Source: Thermosipho melanesiensis BI429 (GTDB lineage Bacteria > Thermotogota > Thermotogae > Thermotogales > Fervidobacteriaceae). From it: a stretch of DNA of 64,000 nucleotides. The notes beneath the pieces are model-generated. The model saw nothing but the letters and a program-made list of their open reading frames with translations. It searched no databases and was not told the DNA's origin. Below are positions 47,359-64,000 of this stretch, piece after piece. A program made the translations under genes and the position numbers. Within the stretch, counting starts at the first letter, position 1. The number at the start of each line of letters is the position of its first letter. The stretch spans positions 1,798,001-1,862,000 of the forward strand of contig NC_009616.1 of NCBI RefSeq assembly GCF_000016905.1, in the 5' to 3' direction.

Positions 47359-49038
47359 TTAAATTACTATTGTTTCTGTATATTCACCAAAAACTTCCCT
47401 CAAAGCATTACTAATTTCTCCAACTGTTGCATAAGCTTTAACAGCTTCTAAAATATATGGCATTAAATTTTCACCAGATGAAGCTGTATTCTTTATATTC
47501 TTTAAAACTTTCTCCACTTTACTATTATCCCGTTTTTTCTTTAACTTTTTCAATTTCATCTTTTGCTTTTCTTCTAGTTCAGGATTAACCTTCAACACTT
47601 CTTTTTGCGTCAAATCTTCCTCAATATTAAATTTATTAACCCCAACAATTACTTCTTCTCCTTTTTCAACAGCCAGCTGCATCTTGTACGCACTTTCGTG
47701 AATCTCCTTTTGCACATACCCACTTTCTATTGCTTTTACCATTCCTCCCATTTCATCGATTTTCTTAATATATTCCATAGCTTTCTCTTCTATATTGTTT
47801 GTTAATGCTTCTATTACATAGGAACCGCCTAATGGATCAATTGTATCCGCCACTCCAGATTCATATGCTATTATCTGTTGAGTTCTTAAAGCTATTCTAA
47901 CTGATTCTTCTGTTGGCAAACCAAGTGCTTCATCATAACTATTCGTATGTAATGATTGAGTTCCACCTAGAACAGCTGCCAATGCTTGAATAGTAACACG
48001 TATTATGTTATTCAATGGTTGTTGGGCCGTAAGTGTAGAACCTCCAGTCTGTGTATGGAAACGTAACATCATTGCTTTTTCATTCGTTACTCCAAACCTT
48101 TCCTTCATAATCTTTGCCCATAATCTCCTTGCTGCCCTAAATTTTGCAATTTCTTCAAGGAAATTATTATGTGCAGCAAAAAAGAAAGAAAGCCTTCTTC
48201 CAAAAACATTTGGATCCAAACCTGCTTTAATAGCAGTTTCAACATATGCAATTGCATCGGCAAGTGTAAAGGCCACTTCTTGAACAGCCGTTGAACCCGC
48301 TTCCCTAATATGATATCCACTAATACTAATTGGGTTCCATTTGGGCATATTTTTTGAACAAAATTCAAATATATCGGTTATTATCCTCATTGAAGGTTGT
48401 GGTGGAAAAATATATGTTCCTCTTGCAATGTATTCCTTTAATATATCATTCTGAATAGTTCCAGAAAGTTTTTCCATTGGAACTCCTTGTTTCTCCGCAA
48501 CTGCAATATACATAGCCAAAAGAATAGCCGCCGTACTATTAATTGTCATAGATGTACTTACTTTATCCAAAGGTATACCATCAAATAATATTTCCATATC
48601 TTCTAATGAATCAATTGCAACACCAACTTTTCCTACTTCTCCCTCTGCCATTGGATCATCCGAATCATAACCTATTTGTGTTGGCAAGTCAAATGCAACC
48701 GATAATCCCATTTGCCCTTGTTCCAACAAATATTTATACCTCTTATTAGATTCTTCGGCTGTTCCAAATCCAGCATATTGCCTCATTGTCCAAAACCTAG
48801 CCCTGTACATTGTAGGTTGAACACCTCTAGTAAATGGATACATACCAGGAAATCCTAAATCATTTAAATAATCAAATCTTTCTACATCAAGTGGTGTATA
48901 TAATCTTTTAAATTCATATCCAGATGTAGATTTAAATTCTTCTTTTCTTTCAGGAAATCTTTCAATTGCTTTTTTTACATTTCCATCATAGTCTCTCATT
49001 TTATCTTCTATATCTTTTAATTTTTCTCTATCAAACAT
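47359..49038 (-). CDS. Methylmalonyl-CoA mutase large (catalytic) subunit
   Basis: A 559-residue TIM-barrel subunit of the cobalamin-dependent mutase that interconverts methylmalonyl-CoA and succinyl-CoA. Characteristic segments are [40 protein letters not shown] and [16 protein letters not shown], and [17 protein letters not shown] near 400. The C-terminal cobalamin-binding domain (DxHxxG motif) is absent, as in split mutases, so a separate small subunit must be encoded elsewhere; it is not in this window. It shares an operon with a carboxyltransferase subunit and pdxST. Confidence 0.93.
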
Positions 49039-50010: not shown

Positions 50011-50804
50011 TCTATTACCTCCCAGTTTTTCTCGAAATTTCCCATCAAAGATTCAATAGTTTTTCCAAATTTAGGATGTACAAAATCTTTAGATATTTCA
50101 ACCATAGGAACAACAAAAAAATCCCTATTTACAAAATCATAATGTGGTATTTTTAATTTTTCTAAATCAATTACAAGATTTCCATAAAATAGAATATCAA
50201 TATCTATTATTCTTGGCCCCCACTTTATCGTTCTTTTTCGCCCCATGTTTTTTTCAATTTTTAATAAACATTCCAAAAGTTTTTTTGGACTCAGAACTGT
50301 ATCAATTTCAACAACTATATTGTAGAAATTATCTTGATTGGTATATCCATATGGTTTGGTAATATAAATACTTGAAGTTTTTAATATTTTTATCCCAACC
50401 TTTTCCAAGTAATCTAATGCAGTTGATAAATTTTTTTCTTTTTCACCTAAATTTGTACCAATTCCAAGAAAAACATTTCCTTGACGTTTTTCTAAAATAA
50501 CATTTGAAAGCGCAAATGTATCATGAGAAAGTGAAACATGACAAAAATTAAATCCCTCAAAATCTTTATGTAAAACAATATAGGGTTTTCCCTCATCATT
50601 ATTCAAAATCGAAATATCCTTAAAAGAATTACCATTAAGACCTGTTCCAAGTGCTTTAAAAAATGCCTCTTTTAGAGAAAAACGCCCAGCTAGATATTGG
50701 GCGTTTAATTTCTTTCCTTTTTCCAATCCTGTTAGTATCCTATCGGCAATTTTTAACGATATACGTCCAATATCAATAATGTCAATCCCAATTCCAACAA
50801 TCAA
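49992..50804 (-). CDS. Fused holo-ACP synthase (AcpS) and HPPK (FolK)
   Basis: A 270-residue protein with two enzyme domains. Residues about 1-107 are AcpS, which transfers phosphopantetheine to acyl carrier protein: GIGIDIIDIGRI with the metal aspartate, LAGRFSLKEAFFKALGTG with the glutamate, and HVSLSHDTFALSNVILE. Residues about 108-260 are FolK, which pyrophosphorylates 6-hydroxymethyldihydropterin in folate synthesis: VFLGIGTNLGEKEKNL, YITKPYGYTNQDNFYN and WGPRIIDIDILFYG. No stop or frameshift lies at the join. It overlaps the carboxyltransferase gene by 4 bases. Both active sites look intact. Confidence 0.88.
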   Translation of the reverse strand: MIVGIGIDIIDIGRISLKIADRILTGLEKGKKLNAQYLAGRFSLKEAFFKALGTGLNGNSFKDISILNNDEGKPYIVLHKDFEGFNFCHVSLSHDTFALSNVILEKRQGNVFLGIGTNLGEKEKNLSTALDYLEKVGIKILKTSSIYITKPYGYTNQDNFYNIVVEIDTVLSPKKLLECLLKIEKNMGRKRTIKWGPRIIDIDILFYGNLVIDLEKLKIPHYDFVNRDFFVVPMVEISKDFVHPKFGKTIESLMGNFEKNWEVIDWKLRR

Positions 50805-52177
50805 ACAGGATAACCTCCTCCATACTCCTCCACAAGTTCTAAATCTACCAATATTTTTTCTTCATATTTTTCCCTTAGATATTTTCTACCAACTTCACCT
50901 AAAATGACATATATCAACAAATCTTCATCTGAATCTGCTAATATACCTATTTCTTTCTTAAATTTTTCCAATTCAAATTCCAAAAGATCTGCAGGCCTAC
51001 ATTCAATAGGTTTTTCATCGCCTAAAATTGCTTCCATTAATTCACCGTCAATTGGTGCAGGTGGTCTACCATACATACCCTTTACATAATTCTTCACTTC
51101 ATTCGTAACCTTTTTGTATCTTTCACCTGTTAAAACGTTTAAAACAGCCTGCACCCCCACAATCTGACTAGTTGGTGTAACAAGTGGTGGATATCCCAAA
51201 TCTTTCCTTACCTTCGGAATCTCTTCTAAAACTAAAGGAAGTTTATTTAGCATTTTTTGCTCAGAAAGCTGTTTTACAAGGTTTGAATACATACCACCAG
51301 GCACTTGTGAAACCAATATTCTATAATCAATACTTTTCATAGCAACATCGTAATCTTTATACTTCTCCCTTACCTTCGTAAAATGATCTACAAGATAAGC
51401 TATTCTTTTCCAATCAATTTCAGGAAGTGCTCTGTACTCTCTAATTGCAAAATACATAGACTCATAAGGTGGCTGTGATGTCCCAAGTGCAAACGGTGAA
51501 AGTGCTGTATCTAACATATCTACACCTGCTTCAACTGCAGCAATATAATTTAAATCTCCCAATCCAGAAGTACAATGAGTATGCAATTCCACTGGAACGT
51601 TAAACCTTTCCTTCAATTTTTTAACTAACTCATAGCTTCTTTTGGGAGTTAATAATCCTGCCATATCCTTTATACAAAGAGAATTCACCCCTCGCTCAAC
51701 TAGCTGTTGAGCAAAGGATAAATAGTAATCAACAGTATGAACAGGACTTACTGTGTAGGAAATTGCCCCTTGTACATGTGCTCCATTTTTTAATGCAACT
51801 TCTATACTTTTTTCTAAGTTTCTAATATCATTCAAAGCATCAAAAACCCTTATATTATCAACACCATTTTCAATTGCTTTTTTTACAAACAATTCAACAA
51901 CATCGTCAGCATAATGTCTATATCCAACTAAGTTTTGTCCCCTAAGAAGCATCTGAGTTTTTGTATTTTTTAATTTAGATTTTATCACTTTAATACGTTC
52001 CCAAGGGTTTTCCTTTAAAAATCTTACACATACATCAAAAGTTGCTCCACCCCAAACCTCCATTGCATTAAACCCCAATGAATCCATTGCATCAAGTGCT
52101 GGAAGCATATCAATAAGTCGCATTCTCGTTGCTATTAAAGATTGATGACCATCTCTTAATGTAGTATCAACAAACAT
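50801..52177 (-). CDS. Biotin-enzyme carboxyltransferase subunit (OadA / 5S type)
   Basis: A 458-residue carboxyltransferase of the oxaloacetate decarboxylase alpha / transcarboxylase 5S / PycB family. Metal and substrate motifs are DTTLRDGHQSLIATRMR, VWGGATFDVC, the carbamylated lysine in LCIKDMAGLL, ELHTHCTSGLG and VPGGMYSNL. It ends before a biotinyl domain, so biotin is carried by another protein. It could decarboxylate oxaloacetate or exchange carboxyl groups with methylmalonyl-CoA; the mutase in the same operon favours the latter. ATG at 52177 has GGAG overlapping the infB stop. Confidence 0.9.
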   Translation of the reverse strand: MFVDTTLRDGHQSLIATRMRLIDMLPALDAMDSLGFNAMEVWGGATFDVCVRFLKENPWERIKVIKSKLKNTKTQMLLRGQNLVGYRHYADDVVELFVKKAIENGVDNIRVFDALNDIRNLEKSIEVALKNGAHVQGAISYTVSPVHTVDYYLSFAQQLVERGVNSLCIKDMAGLLTPKRSYELVKKLKERFNVPVELHTHCTSGLGDLNYIAAVEAGVDMLDTALSPFALGTSQPPYESMYFAIREYRALPEIDWKRIAYLVDHFTKVREKYKDYDVAMKSIDYRILVSQVPGGMYSNLVKQLSEQKMLNKLPLVLEEIPKVRKDLGYPPLVTPTSQIVGVQAVLNVLTGERYKKVTNEVKNYVKGMYGRPPAPIDGELMEAILGDEKPIECRPADLLEFELEKFKKEIGILADSDEDLLIYVILGEVGRKYLREKYEEKILVDLELVEEYGGGYPV

Positions 52178-52181
52178 ATTA

Positions 52182-54260
52182 TTACTCTCCTTTTTCCTCA
52201 TCAAAATTTAATTTTTTAGAAACTTTTTTCAAAATATAAAACTCCAATTCATCTCCTTCTTTTATATCATCAAAAGCTTCTAATTTAATTCCACATTCTT
52301 GAGGAGCTTCAACTTTTTTCACATCCTGTTGATAATGTTTTAAAGATTCTATCTTACCCTCAAAAATTAATTTACCTTCCCTATATAGTCTTACTATTCC
52401 ATCGCTTTCGACATACCCTTCCTTCATTTGAACACCTGCAATACTTCCGACCTTTTTTATTTTAAATACCTTTCTAATTTCACCTCTACCACTTATCTCT
52501 TCTATCTCTTCTGGTTCAAGCATACCTTCAAGAGCCGCTTTTAGATCTTCTATTAATTTATATACAATTGAATATGTTTTAATTTGAATACCCTCAGCTT
52601 CTGCCATTTTTCTAGCCTTACTATCAGCCTTCACACGAAAACCAAAAATTATAGCATCAGATGCAGTAGCAAGCATAACATCACTACTCGTAATTGCTCC
52701 AACACCAGAATGTATCACATTAATTTTTATTTCATCACTTTGAAGTTTATTTATTGCACCATTTAACGCAAGAACTGATCCATTTGTATCAGCTTTTAAT
52801 ATTAGGTTTAACTCTTTTCTATCAGATTGTTCCATCATTTTCAAAATTTCTTCTAATTTCATATGCCTTTTTCTTCTAAGTTCCTTTTGCTCAAGCTCGG
52901 CAATCTTACTAGTTATTTCTCTTGCCTTGGATAAACTTTCAACACTATACACCATACCATGGGAATCTGGGAGCTCTTCAAAACCAACAATCATAACTGG
53001 CATTGATGGTCCCGCTTCCCTTATCCTTTCCCCCCTATCATTTACCAAAGCCTTTACTTTTCCCATTACTTTTCCAGAAATCACATAATCACCTACATGT
53101 AATACTCCATCTTTTATAATGACATTTGCAACAGGTCCAAATCCTCTTTCCATTCGAGTTTCAATCGTTACAGCTCTTACTGGTCCATCTGGTAATCCCT
53201 TTATTTCTTGCATTTCTGCTACTAGCAAAATCATTTCAAGTAAAGTATCAACATTTTGGCCTTTTTTAGCAGAAATAGGTACTACTATAGTATCTCCACC
53301 CCATTCTTCTGGGATCAAGTTAATTTTATTAACAAGCTCCTGTTTTGTTTTTTCTACATTTGCGTTTGGCTTGTCTATTTTATTTATTGCTACAATAATA
53401 GGAACATTTGCGGATTTTGCATGGTTAAAAGCTTCTACAGTTTGAGGCATTACACCATCATCTGCTGCTACTATAAGCACTACAATATCCGTAGCTTGCG
53501 CACCTCTTGCACGCATTTCAGTAAAAATTTCATGCCCAGGTGTATCAATAAATGTAATTTTCTTACCATTTACTTCGACTTGATATGCACCTATACTTTG
53601 GGTAATTCCACCTTCTTCTCTCTCAGCTACCCTAGTATTTCTTATATAATCCAAAAGTGTAGTTTTTCCATGGTCAACATGTCCCATAACAGTTACAACA
53701 GGTGGTCTTTCACTTAAGCCTTCCCCCTCTGAATATTTTTCTTCAAAATATCTCTCAACTTCTTCAAGGGGATTAACCTTTTTTTCTTCTCTTTCTTCTA
53801 CTTCAAACGAAATTTTTATATCATATATTTTTGCAATTTTTTTTGCAAGTTGAAGATTCAAAGTTTGACCGGGTTTTAAAATTTCACCTTTCATAAAAAA
53901 ATCTTGTATTATTCTATTTTGAGGAATACCTATTTTTTGCGCAAACTTATCCAGCTTTAAATCTTCTTCCTCAAGCTTTATCACACCTTTTTTCTTTTTT
54001 ACTACCTCCGATTTTTCTACAAATTCTTTGCTTTTCCTTTTTATTTCTTTTTCTACTTCTTCTTCATACTCTTCATAAATCAATTCATCTTCTAATTCAT
54101 CCTCTTCGCTGTACATTTCAAGAAGTAAATTAACCGTCTCTTCATCAATATAACTCATATGACTTTTTACTTCAATTCCCAACTCTTTTAATTCCTTCAT
54201 TAAATCTCTTGTGTCCATTTCCAACTGCCTTGCAAGTTCATATACTCTTAATCGAGCCAT
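52182..54260 (-). CDS. infB: Translation initiation factor IF-2
   Basis: A 692-residue GTPase that positions fMet-tRNA on the ribosome. The N-terminal IF2_N module opens the protein ([20 protein letters not shown]), then an acidic linker and second IF2_N segment, then the G domain with [32 protein letters not shown] and NKIDKPNAN, and C-terminal beta domains. The linker is short, as in compact thermophile IF-2. It lies 21 bases after the DUF3783 gene. Confidence 0.97.
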
Positions 54261-54503: not shown

Positions 54504-55343
54504 TTATAATTTTATTTCTTTTAACGAATTCTGCGCCTTTATAATTGATTTTATAACCTCCACAATAACATTAAATTCATTAGATGATTCTTTAAGAACC
54601 TCTACAGATTTTGATAACAAATCTGCTTCATCAGATAACTTACCCTCTGTTATTTCAAACAGCTCTTTGGAATTCTTCAAAACATTTAAATTTTGTTTCA
54701 TATAATCCATTGAGTTTTTCAAAGCATTTTGAATTGCATTAAACAATATTTCTATTTCTTTTAACGATTCTAATGAGGTTCTTACAGACTCTGATATTTC
54801 ACCGACTATTTTGGAAATATCTTTAGAAGTATTTTGAGATTCCTCAGCAAGTTTTTGGATTTCAGACGCAACTACGGAAAAACCTTTCCCATATTCCCCA
54901 GCTCTTGCAGCTTCAATTGAAGCATTTAAAGCAAGTAAATTTGTTTGCTTTGCAATTTTTTGAATATTCTTTACTAAATCTTTTATTACTTCAAAGTTCT
55001 CAAATGTCTTAGATGTTTTATTAATCGTCTCTTTGAATTTATCAGCAACATTACCAACATTAGTCCCTAGTTTTTTCAAATCCTCGTCAATCTTAGAATT
55101 AATCATAGTAGCATATTCTATATTTCCAACGATCTCATTACTTTCATTTGAAAAATCTCTTAACAAATTTTCAATTCCATTACTAAGATTCTCAAAATCA
55201 CGTGCAATGTTTTCAATTTCGTTTCTAATACCAGAAATTCTAGAGACTAATACTTCATCTAATTGCGACATAAATGATAGCATTAAATTTTGTATATAAA
55301 ATGCAGATGAAATAGTTGTTAATGTTTTTCCATCTATTTTCAT
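54504..55343 (-). CDS. Soluble chemoreceptor-like signalling protein
   Basis: A 279-residue methyl-accepting-type protein with no membrane segment. A short N-terminal stretch precedes a coiled-coil signalling domain with the conserved tip [22 protein letters not shown] at 55343 is nine bases after GGGAG; an ATG three codons earlier overlaps the upstream stop (ATGA) but directly abuts the ribosome site. It is translationally coupled to the ODP-type diiron gene. In Treponema and Thermotoga such receptor-ODP pairs act in oxygen or iron sensing, so this protein probably relays the ODP state to CheA. Confidence 0.88.
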
Positions 55344-55348
55344 ACATA

Positions 55349-56113
55349 TCATCTCCCATAAAACTCATTTATTAAATCTACTCCACATTTTAATCCCTTA
55401 AACCAATTTAAAAATTCTCTTACAACTTTTCCTTTCATTACAGCACCATGTTGAGGTGCAATTGCATCAATATCATAACTTTGAACTTTCTCAACCCAAG
55501 CTTTACATGCACTATTTGAGCTCATATATCTTTTATGAAATCCTTCCATATAAACTTTATACTTTTCAAAATCGGTTTCTATTATCTGCATACGTTCTTT
55601 AAATGAAAATACTGCTACACCTATATCTCCTGAAAATAGAATCTTTGAAATTGGATCATACACATTAAAATGACCTGGAGAATGTAAAAAATGCGCAGGT
55701 AGAAAATCCAAAACATAACCAGAAAACCTAACACCTTTCTCTCCGGCATCTTTTAACCCCACAACCCTTTTCTTATCAAAAACACCAAAATGAGGCAGAA
55801 ATCTTGTCCATAATTCTGAAATATATATTTTAGCTTTACTTGCTATTGTCAACCACATTGTAATTCCCGAGGAAACATCTGGATCCTGATGCGAATAAAA
55901 TATGCCTTCTATATCATCAGGTGATATAACTTCTGAAACATTTGCCAAAACTCTTGGAAATACGTGTGCACCACCTGGATCAATTAAAAATCCTTTTCTA
56001 TTATGAATTATCAAATATTGATTTGTTTGAACCAACCCTTCTTCTTCTGACTCTTCCCAACCTAGCAAATAATATTTATGTTCGCCATTATCAAATAAAC
56101 ATATATTTCTCAT
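55349..56113 (-). CDS. ODP-type diiron metallo-beta-lactamase-fold oxygen sensor
   Basis: A 254-residue metallo-beta-lactamase-fold protein related to the diiron domain of flavodiiron proteins, without the flavodoxin domain. Metal-site segments are [38 protein letters not shown] and [12 protein letters not shown] proteins bind oxygen at the diiron site and partner soluble chemoreceptors. The next gene is exactly such a receptor, within a few bases. Metabolic oxygen reductase activity is the alternative, but no rubredoxin or flavodoxin gene is adjacent. Confidence 0.85.
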
Positions 56114-56281: not shown

Positions 56282-56911
56282 ATGGAAAAATATTATGAAA
56301 AACTAATGCTACTATCAAGTTTGTTTGTTTCTGTTATAATAATCTCAAACATTATTGCTGGAAAATTAGTAAATATTGGTCCTTTTGTTATTACGCTTTC
56401 AGTTTTAATATATCCTGTAAGCTTTGGAATTTCAAATATCATTTTTGAAATTTACGGGGAAAAAATAATCAAAAAAGTTATTCTAATTGGGTTTATCGCT
56501 TCAATAATTTTGGCAATTTATTCTTTTATTGTTATCCTTTATCCACCTTCACAAATCTTCGATAAAAATGAATCTTATGTCACTGTTTTTAACAACACGC
56601 CAAGAATAATTTTAGCAAGTTTTTTGGCATACCTTTCTGCACAATTTTCAAACATTTGGATTTTTAAATTTTTAAAAAATTTAAAAGTAAATAATCTAAC
56701 AATTAGAAATACAATTTCAATGATAATTACTCAATTTATAGATTCTGTAGTTTTTGTAGGTATTTCCTTTTTAGGAAATTATAGTTTTGATACAATAATA
56801 AGCATGATCTTATCACAGTATATTATAAAACTCGTTATTTCCATCCTAAATGGTCCAATAATAAACTTTAGTGTCAAAAGAATAAAAAATACACTAGTTT
56901 ATGATAAATAA
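56282..56911 (+). CDS. Queuosine precursor transporter (YhhQ/VUT family)
   Basis: A 209-residue membrane protein with about six helices of the COG1738 family, which imports preQ0 or preQ1 for tRNA queuosine. It shows ISNIIAGKLVNIGPFVIT, YPVSFGISNIIFEIYGEK, YLSAQFSNIWIFKFLK and TQFIDSVVFVGISF, all family landmarks. AGGAGG lies seven bases before ATG. It stands alone before the cobalamin riboswitch. Confidence 0.9.
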   Translation: MEKYYEKLMLLSSLFVSVIIISNIIAGKLVNIGPFVITLSVLIYPVSFGISNIIFEIYGEKIIKKVILIGFIASIILAIYSFIVILYPPSQIFDKNESYVTVFNNTPRIILASFLAYLSAQFSNIWIFKFLKNLKVNNLTIRNTISMIITQFIDSVVFVGISFLGNYSFDTIISMILSQYIIKLVISILNGPIINFSVKRIKNTLVYDK

Positions 56912-56947: not shown

Positions 56948-56976
56948 TTTTCAAAAATTAAACAAGTTGATATAAT
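56948..56976 (+). promoter_or_regulatory. Promoter of the cobalamin-riboswitch operon
   Basis: TTTTCA (56948-56953) and TATAAT (56971-56976) are 17 bases apart, about 20 bases upstream of the riboswitch P1 stem. Confidence 0.55.
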
Positions 56977-57002
56977 ATAAGTAGGAAAAATGAATAACCA
57001 AT

Positions 57003-57162
57003 GGAATAAAGGTGCCTTAAAGGCTTAATAGGGAAGCTGGTGAAAATCCAGCGCGGCCCCGCCACCGTAACTGGGGACGAAAGTCGCAAAGTGCCACTGG
57101 GATTTCCTGGGAAGGTGCGACGAGTAGGTTGATCCAGAAGCCGGGAGACCTGCCTTTGTTCC
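57003..57162 (+). promoter_or_regulatory. Cobalamin (B12) riboswitch aptamer
   Basis: P1 is GGAATAAAGG (57003-57012) with CCTTTGTTCC (57153-57162), complementary apart from one G-U pair. Core landmarks are GGGAAGCTGGTGAAAATCC, GCCACTG (57093-57099) and the B12 box AGCCGGGAGACCTGCC (57139-57154). A terminator follows directly. Aptamers of this class normally switch the downstream genes off when adenosyl- or methylcobalamin is plentiful. The genes controlled here are succinyl-CoA ligase and a transporter rather than B12 synthesis or uptake genes. Confidence 0.96.
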
Positions 57163-57168
57163 AAAGTG

Positions 57169-57210
57169 TTTCTCAATCTCGAGGGCAGATTGAGAAAAAT
57201 TGTTTTTTGA
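57169..57210 (+). terminator. Riboswitch-controlled terminator before sucC
   Basis: TTTCTCAATCT (57169-57179) pairs with AGATTGAGAAA (57187-57197), an 11-bp stem with a 7-base loop, followed by TTGTTTTTT. It forms the expression platform, with sucC starting 26 bases later. Confidence 0.88.
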
Positions 57211-57235
57211 TTATATTAAAAAGGGAGGTATCTAT

Positions 57236-58252
57236 ATGAAAATTTATGAATTTGTGGGGAAACAGCTCTTTAAAGAACATGGTGTAAAAATTCCAGAAGG
57301 TTATTTAGTAACTTCTAAAGATGAGTTAACCATAAAATTTCTTCCAGCTGTTTTAAAAAGTCAAGTATTAGTTGGAGGGAGAATGAAAGCTGGTGGAATT
57401 CTCTTTGCAAATAATCAGAGAGAATTTTATGATTATGGAAATATTCTATTGAAAAAAAATATAAAAGGTGAAAAACCATACGGAATATTAATTGAAAAAA
57501 TGATTAATATAAAAAGGGAATATTATTTATCAATGTATATCGATAAATTGGAAAAAGATTTTATGATACTCTTCTCAGAATATGGCGGAATAAATATAGA
57601 AGAAAACGCAGATAAAGTTATTAAAATAAACTTTGACAAATATAAAGTACTTCCCAAAAAATTTCACAAAATTATTCTAACATTATACAAACTCATGAAA
57701 GAAAAAGATTTAACACTAATTGAAATCAACCCTTTAGCCGAAACTTTAAATGGTGATTTAATTGCATTAGATGCTGTATTACATTTAGATGACAATTCTA
57801 TTTTTAGACAAAAATGGGCTAAACAATTTTCCTCTGAAACACAACCTTTTCATTTCGTAAAACTAAATGGTGATATTGGAATAATCGGTTGTGGTGCTGG
57901 AATTGTAATGGCTACAATGGATGCCGTAACATTTTATGGTGGAAAACCAGCAAACTTCCTTGATCTTGGTGGTGGAGCAGATACCAAAACTACAACTCTA
58001 GCACTCGAATATTTAAAAAATCTTTCAATTAACAAAATAATAATGAATATCTTTGGTGGAATTACAAAATGCGATGAAATTGCTCAAGCTATTGTCAGGT
58101 TTAAACAAAAAAATCCTCAAATATCACTATACGTTAGATTAACTGGGACAAATGAAGAAATTGCTAAACAAATTTTAAAAAAATACAATATTGAATTATT
58201 TAGCGATATGTACGAAATGATTGAATGTGCAGTAAAGGAGGAGAAAAAATGA
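57236..58252 (+). CDS. sucC: Succinyl-CoA ligase beta subunit
   Basis: A 338-residue ATP-grasp subunit that binds nucleotide and succinate. It opens with KIYEFVGKQLFKEHGV, has VLVGGRMKAGGI, EINPLAE at the metal site and, in the C-terminal half, FLDLGGGADTKT and IFGGITKCDEIAQAI. It is about 50 residues shorter than E. coli SucC. ATG at 57236 follows GGGAGG and clears the terminator; a start at 57200 lies within the hairpin region. It overlaps sucD by 4 bases. Confidence 0.92.
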   Translation: MKIYEFVGKQLFKEHGVKIPEGYLVTSKDELTIKFLPAVLKSQVLVGGRMKAGGILFANNQREFYDYGNILLKKNIKGEKPYGILIEKMINIKREYYLSMYIDKLEKDFMILFSEYGGINIEENADKVIKINFDKYKVLPKKFHKIILTLYKLMKEKDLTLIEINPLAETLNGDLIALDAVLHLDDNSIFRQKWAKQFSSETQPFHFVKLNGDIGIIGCGAGIVMATMDAVTFYGGKPANFLDLGGGADTKTTTLALEYLKNLSINKIIMNIFGGITKCDEIAQAIVRFKQKNPQISLYVRLTGTNEEIAKQILKKYNIELFSDMYEMIECAVKEEKK

Positions 58253-59091
58253 TTAACGGTACAGAAAGGGTATGCGTACAAGGTATTACTGGAAGATACG
58301 GTTCATTCCATACAAAAAAAATGCTAAAATATGGAACAAATATAGTTTGCGGAGTATCAAAAAATAAAGTTGTAAAAGAATTAGATGGGATACCTGTACT
58401 TAACGACATGTACGATGCTGTTGAAAAATATAACTGCGATACGTCTATCGTATTCGTTCCTGCTAAACACGCCAAAAATGCTATTTTTGAAGCTATAAAT
58501 GCCGGAATAAAAAAAATAATTACAATTACAGAACACATTCCAATACATGATATGATGGAAATTTATAAACTTTCAAAGCAAAATAATGTAACTTTTATCG
58601 GACCAAATTGCCCAGGAGTTATACTTCCAGGTATAAGCAAAATAGGAATCATGCCTGAAAATGCATTTAAACCAGGCGACATTGCTATTATTTCTAAAAG
58701 TGGTACACTTATGTATGAAATTTCAAATCTCTTATCAAAAAAATCGACAGGTATAAAGATTGGAATTGGCTTAGGAGGCGATCCTATAATCGGCACAAGT
58801 ATTGAAGAAGCACTTGAATTTTCCATAACCCTAAATCCCAGAAAAATAATTATTATAAGTGAAATTGGTAGCAACGATGAAGTTATTGGTATAGAAAAAT
58901 TCTTAAATAAAGGTTATAATGCTAATATACAGGTATTTTTCGCAGGAAGAACCGCACCACGGGGGAAAAAAATGGGACATGCTGGTGCCATTGTCGATGG
59001 AATTAAAAGCTCTATTGAATATAAAGAAAAAAGATTAAAAGCCATAAAAATTCCAGTTGCTAAATATATACCAGAATTATTGGAGGGATAA
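58249..59091 (+). CDS. sucD: Succinyl-CoA ligase alpha subunit
   Basis: A 280-residue subunit with the CoA-binding Rossmann fold (VCVQGITGRYGSFHTKKML at the start), GPNCPGVILPG, SKSGTLMYE and GIGLGGDPIIGTS. The phosphorylated histidine lies in KKMGHAGAIV. ATG at 58249 follows AAAGGAGGAG and overlaps the sucC stop by 4 bases. With SucC it interconverts succinyl-CoA and succinate with ATP or GTP formation. In a fermenter without a full citrate cycle this fits a methylmalonyl-CoA/succinate branch. Confidence 0.94.
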   Translation: MINGTERVCVQGITGRYGSFHTKKMLKYGTNIVCGVSKNKVVKELDGIPVLNDMYDAVEKYNCDTSIVFVPAKHAKNAIFEAINAGIKKIITITEHIPIHDMMEIYKLSKQNNVTFIGPNCPGVILPGISKIGIMPENAFKPGDIAIISKSGTLMYEISNLLSKKSTGIKIGIGLGGDPIIGTSIEEALEFSITLNPRKIIIISEIGSNDEVIGIEKFLNKGYNANIQVFFAGRTAPRGKKMGHAGAIVDGIKSSIEYKEKRLKAIKIPVAKYIPELLEG

Positions 59092-59094
59092 AAA

Positions 59095-60225
59095 TTGCAA
59101 AATCCATACTTTTTGTTGTTTCTAACCATAACTACTGGATTATTAATCGGAAGTATTAAAGTCAAAAACTTCAAACTTGGCTCATCAGGAACTCTGTTTA
59201 CTGGTATTTTCTTTGGTTGGATTTTTCAAAATTTTATACATTCTGCTCAAAAAATTAACGAACTGCAAATTACCTTTCAAAATATCTTCCAATTTTCACT
59301 AATTTTATTTGTTTCATCTATCGGATTAATCGCTTCAAAAGAAATAAAATTCATATTAAAAAAATTCGGTTTAAAGTTCATCATCCTTGCCTTTCTCATA
59401 ACATTCTCTGGTTTCATATTTATTCTCATTTCAATCTTTATAACCAAAATTAATCCATATAACTTAATAGGCGTTTTTTCAGGAAGTTTAACAAGCTCAC
59501 CTGGTCTAGCTACTGCAATAGAAGGTTCGACAAAAAGTAATGAAATTATATATGGATATACAATTGGTTATATTCCAGGAATTTTAGCAGTTATCTTTTC
59601 AATTTATCTCATTCCACCTATTTTCAAAATTAACATTGAATCAGAAAAAAACACAATCTATATTCAAAGCGAACAAAGTAACATAAAAAGTTTTAATCTC
59701 TTATCTTATTCTTTAGTAATTTTAATTGGTATTTTAATAGGAAATATAGATATACCACTAAAATTTTCAACGGTAAAATTAGGAAAAACTGGAGGAATAC
59801 TATTGAGTGCTCTGTTTTTTGGAAACATTGAAAAATTAGGGAATATCAATTTTTCTTTTAACAAAGACACATTAAAATCTCTCCAAAACATAGGACTCGT
59901 GATGTTTTTATCATCTATTGGTTTAAAATCAGGATACAATATCATTGAAAATTTTAATAAGTATAGCGCTATGCTTATGCTAATTTCATTCATTACTGCA
60001 ATATTTTCTATACTAGTTGGCTTTATAATTGGCAGATACATCTTCAAACTAAACTGGACAATCCTTGCCGGTACAATCACAGGTGGTATGACAAGTACAC
60101 CAGGATTAGGAGCAGCATTAGATTCTACAAAAAGTGAGCATGCATTAGCTGGTTACGGAGCAACATATCCTTTTGCATTACTTGGAATGGTTATCTTTAA
60201 CAAAATTTTAATATTATTAACCTAA
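59095..60225 (+). CDS. AAE-family transporter with YidE/YbjL duplication
   Basis: A 376-residue membrane protein with about ten to twelve helices in two repeats, each with the signature GxxTSxPGL: GSLTSSPGLATAIE (about 137-150) and GGMTSTPGLGAALD (about 335-348). The aspartate-alanine exchanger family includes AspT and the Corynebacterium succinate exporter SucE. It lacks the TrkA-C domains often found between repeats. Start TTG at 59095 lies 3 bases after the sucD stop. Being third in the sucCD operon makes succinate or a related dicarboxylate the likely substrate, an inference. Confidence 0.82.
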   Translation: MQNPYFLLFLTITTGLLIGSIKVKNFKLGSSGTLFTGIFFGWIFQNFIHSAQKINELQITFQNIFQFSLILFVSSIGLIASKEIKFILKKFGLKFIILAFLITFSGFIFILISIFITKINPYNLIGVFSGSLTSSPGLATAIEGSTKSNEIIYGYTIGYIPGILAVIFSIYLIPPIFKINIESEKNTIYIQSEQSNIKSFNLLSYSLVILIGILIGNIDIPLKFSTVKLGKTGGILLSALFFGNIEKLGNINFSFNKDTLKSLQNIGLVMFLSSIGLKSGYNIIENFNKYSAMLMLISFITAIFSILVGFIIGRYIFKLNWTILAGTITGGMTSTPGLGAALDSTKSEHALAGYGATYPFALLGMVIFNKILILLT

Positions 60226-60260: not shown

Positions 60261-60270
60261 GAGAACAAAT

Positions 60271-60442
60271 ACGATCGGAGGTGCGTCCGAGATGAGTAGG
60301 ATTCTCCATCAAGGGGAGAATATCGGGAGAATCTGAAAGGCGAGGACGCCGAAGGGTGTGAGGTTTCTCCCGCTTCACACGCCTGGTGGTACAGGGAATA
60401 CCTGTATCACTGTCACGGGATAATCCGTGGAGAGCCGATCGT
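60271..60442 (+). promoter_or_regulatory. Lysine riboswitch (L box)
   Basis: P1 is ACGATCGG (60271-60278) with CCGATCGT (60435-60442), 8 bp. Class landmarks are GGAGGTGC, GATGAGTAGG, GGCGAGGACGCCGAAGGGT, CTGTCACGGGATAATCC and GGAGAGCC. It precedes a complete run of lysine-pathway genes, and lysine binding would favour termination. A 12-bp hairpin TCGTTGAGAAAA/TTTTCTCAACGA (60439-60450, 60460-60471) shares bases 60439-60442 with P1, so the two compete. Confidence 0.96.
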
Positions 60443-60471
60443 TGAGAAAATACATATATTTTTCTCAACGA

Positions 60472-60514: not shown

Positions 60515-61477
60515 ATGAAAATTGGAATTGTAGGTGCAACTGGCGAAGTTGGAAGAGCTATGATAAAAGTATTGGAAAAATTCAACATTCCCGTAAAAGA
60601 GTTGAGACTTTTCGCATCAAAAAACTCGAAAGGTAAATATTTAAAATTCAAAGGACAAGAAATTATGGTCGAAGAACTTACTGAAGACACAATGAAAGAA
60701 AAATATGATTTTCTTTTATTTTCAGCTGGAAAAAATATATCGAAACATTTTGCACCAATAGCAGCAAAGTATGGAAATACAATTATTGACAATTCTTCTG
60801 CCTTTAGAATGGAAAAAGATATACCATTAATTGTTCCAGAAATAAATGGATATCTAGTCAAAAGTTATAAAGGAATTATTGCTAATCCCAATTGTTCAAC
60901 AATTCAAATGGTTCTTTCCTTGCATAAAATTCATGAAAAACTAAAAATAAAAGAAATTTACGTTTCAACTTACCAAGCGGTTTCTGGAGCTGGGCACAAA
61001 GCCATTGAAGAATTCTCAGAACAATTAAATGGAAATAAAATAAATGCTATCTTTCCAAAACAAATTGCATACAATATAATACCAGTTATTGGAAACATTC
61101 TTTCCAACAACTTTTCAGAAGAAGAATATAAGATGATAAATGAAACGAAAAAGATTTTAAACGATTATTCAATAAAAGTTTACCCCACAACAGTACGTGT
61201 GCCAGTAATTTATGGGCATTCAGAAGCCATAGTAGTAAGAACCAAAAAATCGTCTAGTTTAAATGAACTTAAAGAACTAATTTCAAAATCAAAGAATGTA
61301 ATATACACAGAAGAAATTATTACGCCTTTAGATGTTGAAGATAAAGACGAAGTATTTGTCACAAGACTTAGACAATTTGATACAAATACATTTTCAATAT
61401 GGAACGTTGCAGATAACATAAGAGTTGGAGCAGCAACCAACGCAGTACGAATCTTGGAGGTGATGATAAATGAATGA
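60515..61477 (+). CDS. asd: Aspartate-semialdehyde dehydrogenase
   Basis: A 320-residue NADP enzyme that reduces aspartyl phosphate to aspartate semialdehyde, the entry to lysine synthesis. The cofactor loop is GIVGATGEVGRAM, the nucleophile lies in IANPNCSTIQM and the active-site histidine region is VRVPVIYGHSEA. AGGAGGTG precedes the ATG. It is the first gene behind the lysine riboswitch and overlaps dapF by 8 bases. Confidence 0.96.
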   Translation: MKIGIVGATGEVGRAMIKVLEKFNIPVKELRLFASKNSKGKYLKFKGQEIMVEELTEDTMKEKYDFLLFSAGKNISKHFAPIAAKYGNTIIDNSSAFRMEKDIPLIVPEINGYLVKSYKGIIANPNCSTIQMVLSLHKIHEKLKIKEIYVSTYQAVSGAGHKAIEEFSEQLNGNKINAIFPKQIAYNIIPVIGNILSNNFSEEEYKMINETKKILNDYSIKVYPTTVRVPVIYGHSEAIVVRTKKSSSLNELKELISKSKNVIYTEEIITPLDVEDKDEVFVTRLRQFDTNTFSIWNVADNIRVGAATNAVRILEVMINE

Positions 61478-62168
61478 AAAAAAGTATACAGCAAATGGTA
61501 ATTCCTTTATCTTGTTTGACATTACTGACACCTCATTAACAAGTAATGAGAAAAAAGAATTAGTAATAAAAAAATGCCAAGATAGAGATGGTGCATTATT
61601 TGTAGAAACAAAAGATGGAATGTATTTCATGGAATACTATAACAAAGACGGAAGCAAAGCGCCATTTTGTGGTAACGGAGCAAGAGCTTTTTTATTTTAC
61701 CTAATCAAAGAGAAGAAAGCAAATGTGGATAAGTTTCTCACTGAAAGTGGAATAGTATCAGGAAAAATACTAAATGAAAAAATTTTAATAAAAATGCCTA
61801 ATCCGTTGGTTGCCAGAAAGATTAATGTAGAAAATTTTTCAGGTTATCTATTAACGGTAGGTGTACCACATTTTGTGACATTTGTAGATGATATAGAACA
61901 TATTGACGTTAAAAATATAGGCAAAAAAATCAGGAATAAACTGGACGCAAATGTAAACTTTGTTGAAAAAATTTCTAAAAATGAAATCAAAGTTCGTACA
62001 TTTGAAAGAGGCGTGGAAGACGAAACATTATCATGTGGAAGTGGAGTAACAGCTTCAGCTATTGTATTGAATGAATCTAAAGTTAAGGTTCACACTAGAG
62101 GTGGAATATTGCATATCTATACATTAAATGATGGATTTTATTTAGAAGGAGATGTGGAAAATGTTTAG
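61470..62168 (+). CDS. dapF: Diaminopimelate epimerase
   Basis: A 232-residue cofactor-free racemase converting LL- to meso-diaminopimelate. The two catalytic cysteines are in PFCGNGARAF and LSCGSGVTAS. It is about 40 residues shorter than E. coli DapF but both halves are present. It overlaps asd by 8 bases and dapA by 8. Confidence 0.95.
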   Translation: MNEKKYTANGNSFILFDITDTSLTSNEKKELVIKKCQDRDGALFVETKDGMYFMEYYNKDGSKAPFCGNGARAFLFYLIKEKKANVDKFLTESGIVSGKILNEKILIKMPNPLVARKINVENFSGYLLTVGVPHFVTFVDDIEHIDVKNIGKKIRNKLDANVNFVEKISKNEIKVRTFERGVEDETLSCGSGVTASAIVLNESKVKVHTRGGILHIYTLNDGFYLEGDVENV

Positions 62169-63027
62169 CGGAATTGGAACTGCTATTATAACACCATTTA
62201 AAAATGGTGAAATTGATTATCATGCTCTTAAAAATTTTCTTGAAACCCAAAGAATGGTTGACGCAATAATACTTTTAGGTACTACTGGTGAAGCTCCAAA
62301 TATTTCAATTGAAGAAAGAGATAAACTAATTCCTTTTGTAAGAGAATACTTTCCTGATAAACCTTTAATTGTTGGTGTGGGAACAAATAGTTCACATCAT
62401 ACAATGGAACTAGTTAAAAATGCAGAAAAAAACAAAGCAGATGCACTACTTGTAGTAACGCCATATTATAACAAACCTACCCAAATTGGATTGTATCATT
62501 ACTACAAATATATATCTGAACATACAGATTTAGAAATAATAATTTACAACGTTCCTGGAAGAACAGGAGTTAATATTGCTCCTGAAACTGTCTATAAACT
62601 TGCTTCCGATTGTAAAAATATTACCGCATTAAAAGAAGCAAATTCTTCTTTTGATCAAATAAACAAAGTTTTGCATTTAAAACCTGAAACATTTAAAGTT
62701 TTTTCTGGAAATGATGATATCTCATTCCAATTTCTTGCAAGTGGAGGTAACGGAGTAATTTCTGTGGCCTCAAATGTAATTCCAAATCAAATGGTTGAAA
62801 TGTATAAAAATATAATATCAGGAAATATTTCAAATGCTAGAAAAATTTTTTATACATACTATCCACTATTTAAGGCTTTGTTTATTGAAACCAATCCAAT
62901 ACCAGTTAAACAGGCTTTAAACATTATGGGATTAATTGAAAACGAATTAAGATTGCCGTTATATCCTGCAAACAAAGAAACTAAAAACATTTTAGAAAAA
63001 ATTCTAAAGGAGTGTAAGATAATATGA
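62161..63027 (+). CDS. dapA: 4-Hydroxy-tetrahydrodipicolinate synthase
   Basis: A 288-residue TIM-barrel aldolase joining pyruvate to aspartate semialdehyde. Visible are [20 protein letters not shown], the catalytic tyrosine in [10 protein letters not shown] and the Schiff-base lysine in [12 protein letters not shown] at 62161 lies nine bases after AAGGAG; an ATG three codons earlier touches the ribosome site. It overlaps dapB by 4 bases. Confidence 0.96.
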
Positions 63028-63677
63028 AATTTGGCGTAATAGGATACAAAGGAAAAATGGGCAAACTAATTACTAAAACTTTTTCAAACAGAGGACATAA
63101 TTGTGTACTTTTTGTTGACAAAGATGAAATAGAACAAATAGATATCCCAGAAGTCATAGTTGATTTTTCTTTAAAAGATGCGTTAGATAAAACAATAAAT
63201 CTTTGCAAGAAAAACAAATCAAATCTCGTTATTGGTACAACAGGATTTTCAAATGAAGATTTAGAAAAGTTACAAAAACTTTCAAAAGAAGTTGCTTTAA
63301 TCCAATCATATAATTTCTCACTTGGAGTAAATATTATTGTTGAAATACTAAACAAGTTAAACAATATTTTAAAGGATTGGGATTGTGAAATTTTCGAAAT
63401 ACACCATTCTCAAAAAAAAGATAAACCATCAGGAACTGCTCTTATGTTTAAAGACGCACTAAAAAAAGAAGTAAATATCAATTCATCAAGACTTGGTGGA
63501 ATCCCAGGTGACCATACTATTTTTTTTGCAAATCAGGGTGAATTAATCTCAATTTCACACCGTACAATTTCACGTGAAGTTTTTGCATTAGGTGCATTAA
63601 AAGCTGCAGAATGGATTTTAAATAAAAAAAATGGTTTTTACACATTCAAAGATATACTTAAGGAGGAGTTAGAATGA
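63024..63677 (+). CDS. dapB: 4-Hydroxy-tetrahydrodipicolinate reductase
   Basis: A 217-residue short-form reductase, as in Thermotoga. The cofactor loop is [13 protein letters not shown] and the substrate site is [16 protein letters not shown] with its histidine pair and lysine. [13 protein letters not shown] corresponds to the conserved GTTG segment. It overlaps dapA and dapH by 4 bases each. Confidence 0.95.
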
Positions 63678-64000
63678 ATACTCAGGAAATTATAAACTTA
63701 ATAGCAAATTCCAAAAAAAGGACAATTGCAAAGGCATATGTTTCGGGGAATCTTAAAAACATCAAACTTGAAAATGTTGAGTTTGTCGGCAATGAATTAT
63801 TTGGTGTTCTATTTGGTGACTTAAAAGATATAGAAAATACAATAAATAAAAATGATATCAAAAACTACAAAATAGAAATTCTTGCTAAAAATTCCGCCAT
63901 TCCACTTGCTGATATAAAAAAATATAATGCACGCATCGAACCAGGTGCAATAATTCGCGATATGGTTGAAATTGGCGATGGTGCTGTAATCATGATGGGT
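63674..64000 (+). CDS. dapH: Tetrahydrodipicolinate N-acetyltransferase, N-terminal part
   Basis: 109 codons are visible before the window ends. The start [19 protein letters not shown] and the following [12 protein letters not shown]-like stretch, then [24 protein letters not shown] at the first hexapeptide repeats (key residues [11 protein letters not shown]), match DapH of the acetyl branch rather than succinyl-type DapD. It would acetylate tetrahydrodipicolinate. The ATG overlaps the dapB stop (ATGA) with AGGAGG upstream. Confidence 0.92.

Follow-up and report, generated by a model that had tools for sequence, protein, structure and literature searches.

Why should a cobalamin riboswitch stand ahead of the genes for succinyl-CoA ligase? 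The question is posed by a locus of Thermosipho melanesiensis BI429 within a stretch of 64,000 nucleotides – here called the window, positions 1798001 to 1862000 of contig NC_009616.1 – from a genome that comprises a single contig of 1,915,238 bases. An initial annotation had placed the riboswitch ahead of sucC-sucD and an AAE-family transporter, and had seen in the arrangement a metabolic bypass tied to methylmalonyl-CoA mutase (MCM). Our analysis leads us to favour, at a probability of about 0.57, a specific form of that idea: a vitamin B12 OFF riboswitch that acts through transcription termination on an operon encoding SucCD and an exporter, the operon serving as a B12-independent outlet for succinyl-CoA. 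The riboswitch, the terminator, the operon, the gene families and the conserved linkage between them are all present in the DNA.

The aptamer (56993-57171, + strand) is a full-length match to RF00174: cmscan gives it 123.6 bits where the gathering score is 31.5, at E = 1.5e-30, and the hit spans model positions 1-189 of 189. On its 5′ side is a promoter-like site with an extended -10 (56948-56976, +; TTTTCA-17-TATAAT, with TG before the -10), which scores 10/12 in a consensus scan and is a pattern match only. The putative expression platform (57169-57208, +), supported by a terminator scan and by fold z, begins with a terminator-like hairpin that is P13 itself (57169-57197; an 11-bp stem, fold z = -2.5) and ends in a T tract. 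The aptamer loop L5, which is rich in C (GCGGCCCCGCC), could pair with the hairpin loop, CGAGGGC, at a computed duplex energy of -8.3 kcal/mol, the two being complementary; the loops for a kissing pair of L5 and L13, with a downstream P13 hairpin, the arrangement of the RF00174 class, are present in the window leader. An antiterminator alternative also exists: the platform stretch GAGGGCAG could instead form a duplex with CTGCCTTT, which lies in the 3′ strand of the aptamer (the B12-box strand), at -12.6 to -14.4 kcal/mol. The weaker figure comes from a narrower test, and it is on this test that we relied; the broader duplex scan often chose other helices. Because the terminator hairpin is P13, and because its G-rich loop has two alternative partners in L5 and the B12-box strand, the arrangement predicts an OFF switch.

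Downstream lie sucC (57236-58252, +; 338 aa), sucD (58249-59091, +; 280 aa) and a gene for an AAE/YidE-YbjL-type membrane transporter (59095-60225, +; 376 aa), a candidate succinate exporter. The first two overlap by 4 bases and the third follows after a gap of 3, so that a single transcript is likely. Pfam and NCBIfam are concordant for all three products: SucC carries ATP-grasp_2 and Ligase_CoA and matches TIGR01016 and the beta subunits of succinyl-CoA synthetases in the PDB; SucD carries CoA_binding and Ligase_CoA and matches TIGR01019 and the corresponding alpha subunits (down to E 6e-72); and the transporter has the domains of the AAE family, namely two Asp-Al_Ex stretches (PF06826, 219 bits) and a match to TIGR01625 above its cut-off. 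SucC retains E163, N165 and D179, invariant residues among the metal-site and catalytic positions, and SucD has the catalytic His motif GHAGAI; the two subunits together therefore hold the ATP-grasp, CoA-binding and ligase domains along with the metal-site and catalytic residues of a succinyl-CoA ligase. In a gene inventory compiled by targeted family searches, no second sucC was found in the genome. The initial description of the locus is thus borne out, and the B12 control that it proposed for sucCD and the transporter gains support from the riboswitch, terminator and operon, which would together provide it.

If the riboswitch matters to the ligase then the two should be found together elsewhere, and the conservation that the initial annotation had named as a check is evident. 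Relatives of the window SucC occur in 28 of 103 Thermotogota genomes, one gene apiece. In two of these (G046 and G012) the contig ends upstream of sucC; in 25 of the 26 testable genes a riboswitch stands directly 5′, and on this basis the linkage is far above chance. The sole exception, G087, has sucC with no riboswitch found upstream, and is also the only sucC-bearing genome in which MCM was not found: a natural control, should the proposed connection hold. One further genome of the genus (G079; L031, C1:401758-402947) has a sucC broken by many stops, while its mutase is intact; its upstream riboswitch is the highest-scoring of all, at 144.7 bits.

The linkage extends beyond the phylum, to two closely related metagenome-assembled genomes of Dictyoglomota type and to two Cloacimonadota genomes in which the riboswitch precedes a fused SucC-SucD, a single protein of 670-673 aa (L163:3813-5834; L269:2805-4817). 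Among the other SucC loci that were fetched, a regex scan revealed no more. In a midpoint-rooted tree the riboswitch-linked SucC proteins form one cluster, needing 2 changes of label where shuffles give 13, and one of the two changes is G087, nested within the cluster; the Dictyoglomota proteins adjoin it across a very short branch. Other Cloacimonadota SucCD, whether fused or tandem, are more distant and had no riboswitch where scanned. A single origin of the riboswitch-linked SucC appears likely from the tree.

The leaders themselves carry the same design through much change of sequence. Comparable hairpins are present in nearly all Thermotogota leaders inspected: the sequence of the stem varies, the pairing and the G-rich loop persist, and a T-rich tract and a ribosome-binding site follow. 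Pairing of L5 with L13, computed in 18 leaders, is complementary in most, with matching types across lineages – a C-rich/G-rich pair, and also a CCCA/TGGG variant. It is weak in the Dictyoglomota leaders and in the Fervidobacterium-like ones, where L5 becomes GGTCGG and L13 an ACC-containing loop. The T tract is missing from the leader of G018 (Kosmotogales), and to the eye the Dictyoglomota leaders seem better suited to regulation at the ribosome-binding site. For all these comparisons folding of each sequence and duplex energies were used in place of covariation statistics for P13, which were dropped because the stems were out of register in the MAFFT alignment.

What occupies the place behind sucD is less constant. 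An AAE protein is found there in Thermosipho and in groups g5, g32, g35 and f8, a YitT/DUF2179 protein in g2 and g3, both in G015, an EamA protein in G018 and the Dictyoglomota, and EamA plus YitT in the Cloacimonadota; in G063, G087 and G046 no partner is evident. That the same slot is taken by three unrelated membrane families suggests product transport, and in the window the product carried would be succinate. By its Asp-Al_Ex domain the transporter belongs to the same broad AAE family as SucE. The latter, from Corynebacterium glutamicum, exports succinate (PMC3620386). Unlike SucE, the window protein, at 376 aa where some 530-560 are expected of AAE, shows no match to TrkA_C; it falls short of the full-length AAE equivalogs, and its slot is held by YitT or EamA elsewhere. 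The assignment to the AAE family made by the initial annotation stands for the domains, less so for the architecture.

A critical issue is the direction in which the mutase works. The gene for its large subunit (47359-49038, -; TIGR00641, 872 bits) lies some 8 kb before the riboswitch, and the product has Arg (ARGTY) where MCM binds the succinyl carboxylate, a position held by Gln in 2-hydroxyisobutyryl-CoA mutase; a B12-binding small subunit, MeaB and an epimerase complete the set. A single cluster elsewhere in the genome holds the epimerase, MmdA (869 bits against a model cut-off of 998.8), an OAD_gamma-like protein (27.8 against 27 bits), a biotin carrier, the mutase small subunit and MeaB. 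The only OadB – a family shared with oxaloacetate decarboxylase – is encoded outside this cluster, beside a KorA-like gene in the same orientation; KorA adjoins OadB in G100 and G042 too, and KorB- and KorC-like genes in the present genome point to a 2-oxoglutarate:ferredoxin-oxidoreductase-like enzyme. No flavoprotein of succinate dehydrogenase or fumarate reductase was detected in the genome, only short dinucleotide-binding matches. Given the decarboxylation-type gene set, the KorA-like gene next to OadB and the lack of a detected dehydrogenase or reductase, succinyl-CoA is probably the substrate of the mutase, en route to propionyl-CoA. The bypass first proposed therefore keeps its functional link to the mutase; its premise that the mutase makes succinyl-CoA is probably wrong. 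Its import and succinyl-CoA-making option is probably reversed, and its last option, the balancing of CoA when the mutase stalls, comes close to the outlet that we favour.

For ligand response, direction of flux and transporter substrate we infer the following course of events. When adenosylcobalamin is plentiful the aptamer would bind it, L5 would pair with the loop of the P13 terminator, and transcription would end before sucC. Under B12 scarcity that G-rich loop would pair instead with the 3′ strand at the base of the aptamer, forming the antiterminator, and the operon would be expressed. Succinyl-CoA would arise, probably, from 2-oxoglutarate by way of the ferredoxin oxidoreductase. With B12 it would pass through mutase, epimerase and a decarboxylase of the biotin/Na+ type to propionyl-CoA; without B12, SucCD would turn it into succinate and ATP, freeing CoA, and the transporter would take the succinate out. 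The opposite notion – that SucCD is a helper that feeds the mutase – we rejected as a misfit with the OFF switch, since the mutase needs the very ligand that shuts SucCD off.

Several observations weigh against this account. Both ligase subunits score below the curated NCBIfam cut-offs (SucC 291 bits against 375.6 for TIGR01016; SucD 286 against 353 for TIGR01019), for which reason we regard the pair as divergent SucCD, kept outside the equivalog, and SucC, set against the 386-aa family model, lacks some 35-40 residues of its ATP-grasp region. The KorB score is likewise below its family cut-off. The MmdA-type subunits could belong to a carboxylase, and SucCD, being reversible, could run toward succinyl-CoA. 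Every one of the 25 riboswitch-sucC Thermotogota genomes has MCM, as do all 3 of the non-Thermotogota ones tested, but the enzyme is present in 90 of the 103 genomes in any case, and its co-occurrence with sucC is weakly informative (Fisher p 0.11, hypergeometric 0.02, neither corrected for kinship); with the statistics weak and the enzyme common, we set co-occurrence aside as strong evidence. OadB, found in 101 of 103 genomes, some of them lacking MCM, is non-specific, and its presence was dropped as proof of a decarboxylase. Finally, G087 is a fragmented, 92%-complete genome whose MCM may lie in missing sequence.

How do other accounts of the locus fare? The mutase might normally supply succinyl-CoA from propionyl-CoA, with low B12 triggering import of succinate and its conversion to succinyl-CoA by SucCD at the cost of ATP. 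An OFF switch suits a substitute for a B12-dependent supply, the ligase is reversible, the transporter family handles C4 acids, and propionate is among the listed growth substrates of Kosmotoga pacifica. Yet the gene cluster is of decarboxylation type, with no evident propionyl-CoA carboxylase (biotin carboxylase was not searched for), and the 2-oxoglutarate oxidoreductase-like genes offer a source of succinyl-CoA that is free of B12; nor was a clear succinyl-CoA-consuming step found (MetA was not searched for), the lysine branch being of N-acetyl type by a partial match to TIGR03532. We consider this account unlikely. It is also rather improbable that the divergent, shortened SucC, which scores below the curated cut-off, acts with SucD on another dicarboxylate – methylmalonate, malate or itaconate, for example – that accumulates at a stalled mutase and is exported by the transporter. 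A stalled mutase may indeed raise methylmalonyl-CoA too; however, succinyl-CoA ligases head the matches, well ahead of malate-CoA ligase. The SucC of the Dictyoglomota, which adjoins the riboswitch-linked cluster, clears the cut-off (437 against 375.6 bits), and the SucD part of the Cloacimonadota fusion clears its own.

Two further accounts were considered. That the riboswitch and operon moved as a block, the control having no effect on fitness, accords with a SucC cluster that spans three phyla and with the broken sucC of G079, where the riboswitch is retained; but the aptamer, the L5-L13 pairing and the hairpin have persisted through changes in stems, genes and downstream transporters, and hitchhiking seems to us very improbable. 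Least credible is that the operon serves cobamide synthesis by providing succinyl-CoA for 5-aminolaevulinate. The other three riboswitches of the genome do precede cob/cbi and btu genes, and PMC6211235 places 'SucCoA' among clusters of B12 metabolism. Thermotogales are, however, reported to build B12 from glutamate, a route without succinyl-CoA (PMC8123684), and within the phylum a complete corrin pathway is reported only in Thermosipho (PMC6211235), whereas the linkage reaches other families; we rejected the proposal on these grounds.

The association itself is not new. According to PMC6211235, which follows Swithers et al. 2012, the B12 genes of Thermosipho lie in four riboswitch-associated clusters, one of them named SucCoA: the same genus and the same linkage, already published at the level of the gene cluster. 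The four cobalamin riboswitches of the present genome match that list, the other three corresponding to the remaining clusters; among Thermotogota, G046, G053, G054 and G055 have four to six each. The citing paper offers neither mechanism nor function, and we saw in it no wider survey, analysis of terminator or L13, or direction of the pathway. In the literature searched we found neither the three-phylum clade nor the branch-switch reading, and the main text of a 255-genome survey of RNA regulons names no 'suc' gene.

MetE is the textbook case of an alternative enzyme repressed by B12. Genes of this kind form a category of their own, 'isozymes of B12-dependent enzymes' (PMC3766115), and the operon proposed here resembles them in that B12 represses genes called upon when a B12-dependent enzyme is out of action. 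It differs in that the reaction of SucCD is not that of the mutase: it would be an alternative exit from a shared substrate rather than an isozyme, and it is this B12-repressed exit that we infer to be new. The metabolic outcome has parallels. Xylanibacter ruminicola (Bacteroidota) accumulates succinate without cobalamin and makes propionate with it, via mutase and a Na+ methylmalonyl-CoA decarboxylase (PMC11575231); none of its four riboswitches is near the pathway genes, whereas here the riboswitch is directly 5′ of the branch enzyme. Pseudothermotoga elfii produces propionate and some succinate from peptides (PMC7746679).

Other features of the window deserve brief mention. A biotin-dependent carboxyltransferase of pyruvate carboxylase subunit B/OadA type (50801-52204, -; NF010644, 884 bits against a cut-off of 734; PYC_OADA) is included here for context. 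At 54504-56113 (-) an ODP-type metallo-beta-lactamase-fold protein is encoded beside a chemoreceptor-like protein in which no membrane segment is evident, possibly an oxygen-sensing pair. Just upstream of the cobalamin riboswitch is a queuosine precursor transporter (56282-56911, +; TIGR00697 above cut-off), and a second YhhQ-like protein is found at L135:4521-5147. Beyond the operon a lysine riboswitch (RF00168, 121.1 bits; 60268-60445, +) precedes asd, dapF, dapA, dapB and an N-acetyl-type dapD/dapH (60515-64000); lysine riboswitches are known in most Thermotogales.

More tentatively, and at somewhat less than even odds, the locus may stand for something more general: an RNA that senses B12 and directly picks which of two energy-yielding routes succinyl-CoA takes, to propionate when B12 is present and to succinate when it is absent. 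It would form part of a transferable module of riboswitch, SucCD and exporter, common to Thermotogota, Dictyoglomota and Cloacimonadota, in which the transporters are interchangeable and YitT/DUF2179 and this group of EamA proteins take part in dicarboxylate export. If so, membrane proteins of the YitT/DUF2179 family, whose function is unknown, would gain a candidate substrate from their place in the same operon slot. A coenzyme riboswitch would then govern a branch point of fermentation, as opposed to the synthesis or uptake of the coenzyme or an isozyme of a B12 enzyme, and would set when these anaerobes release succinate in place of propionate.

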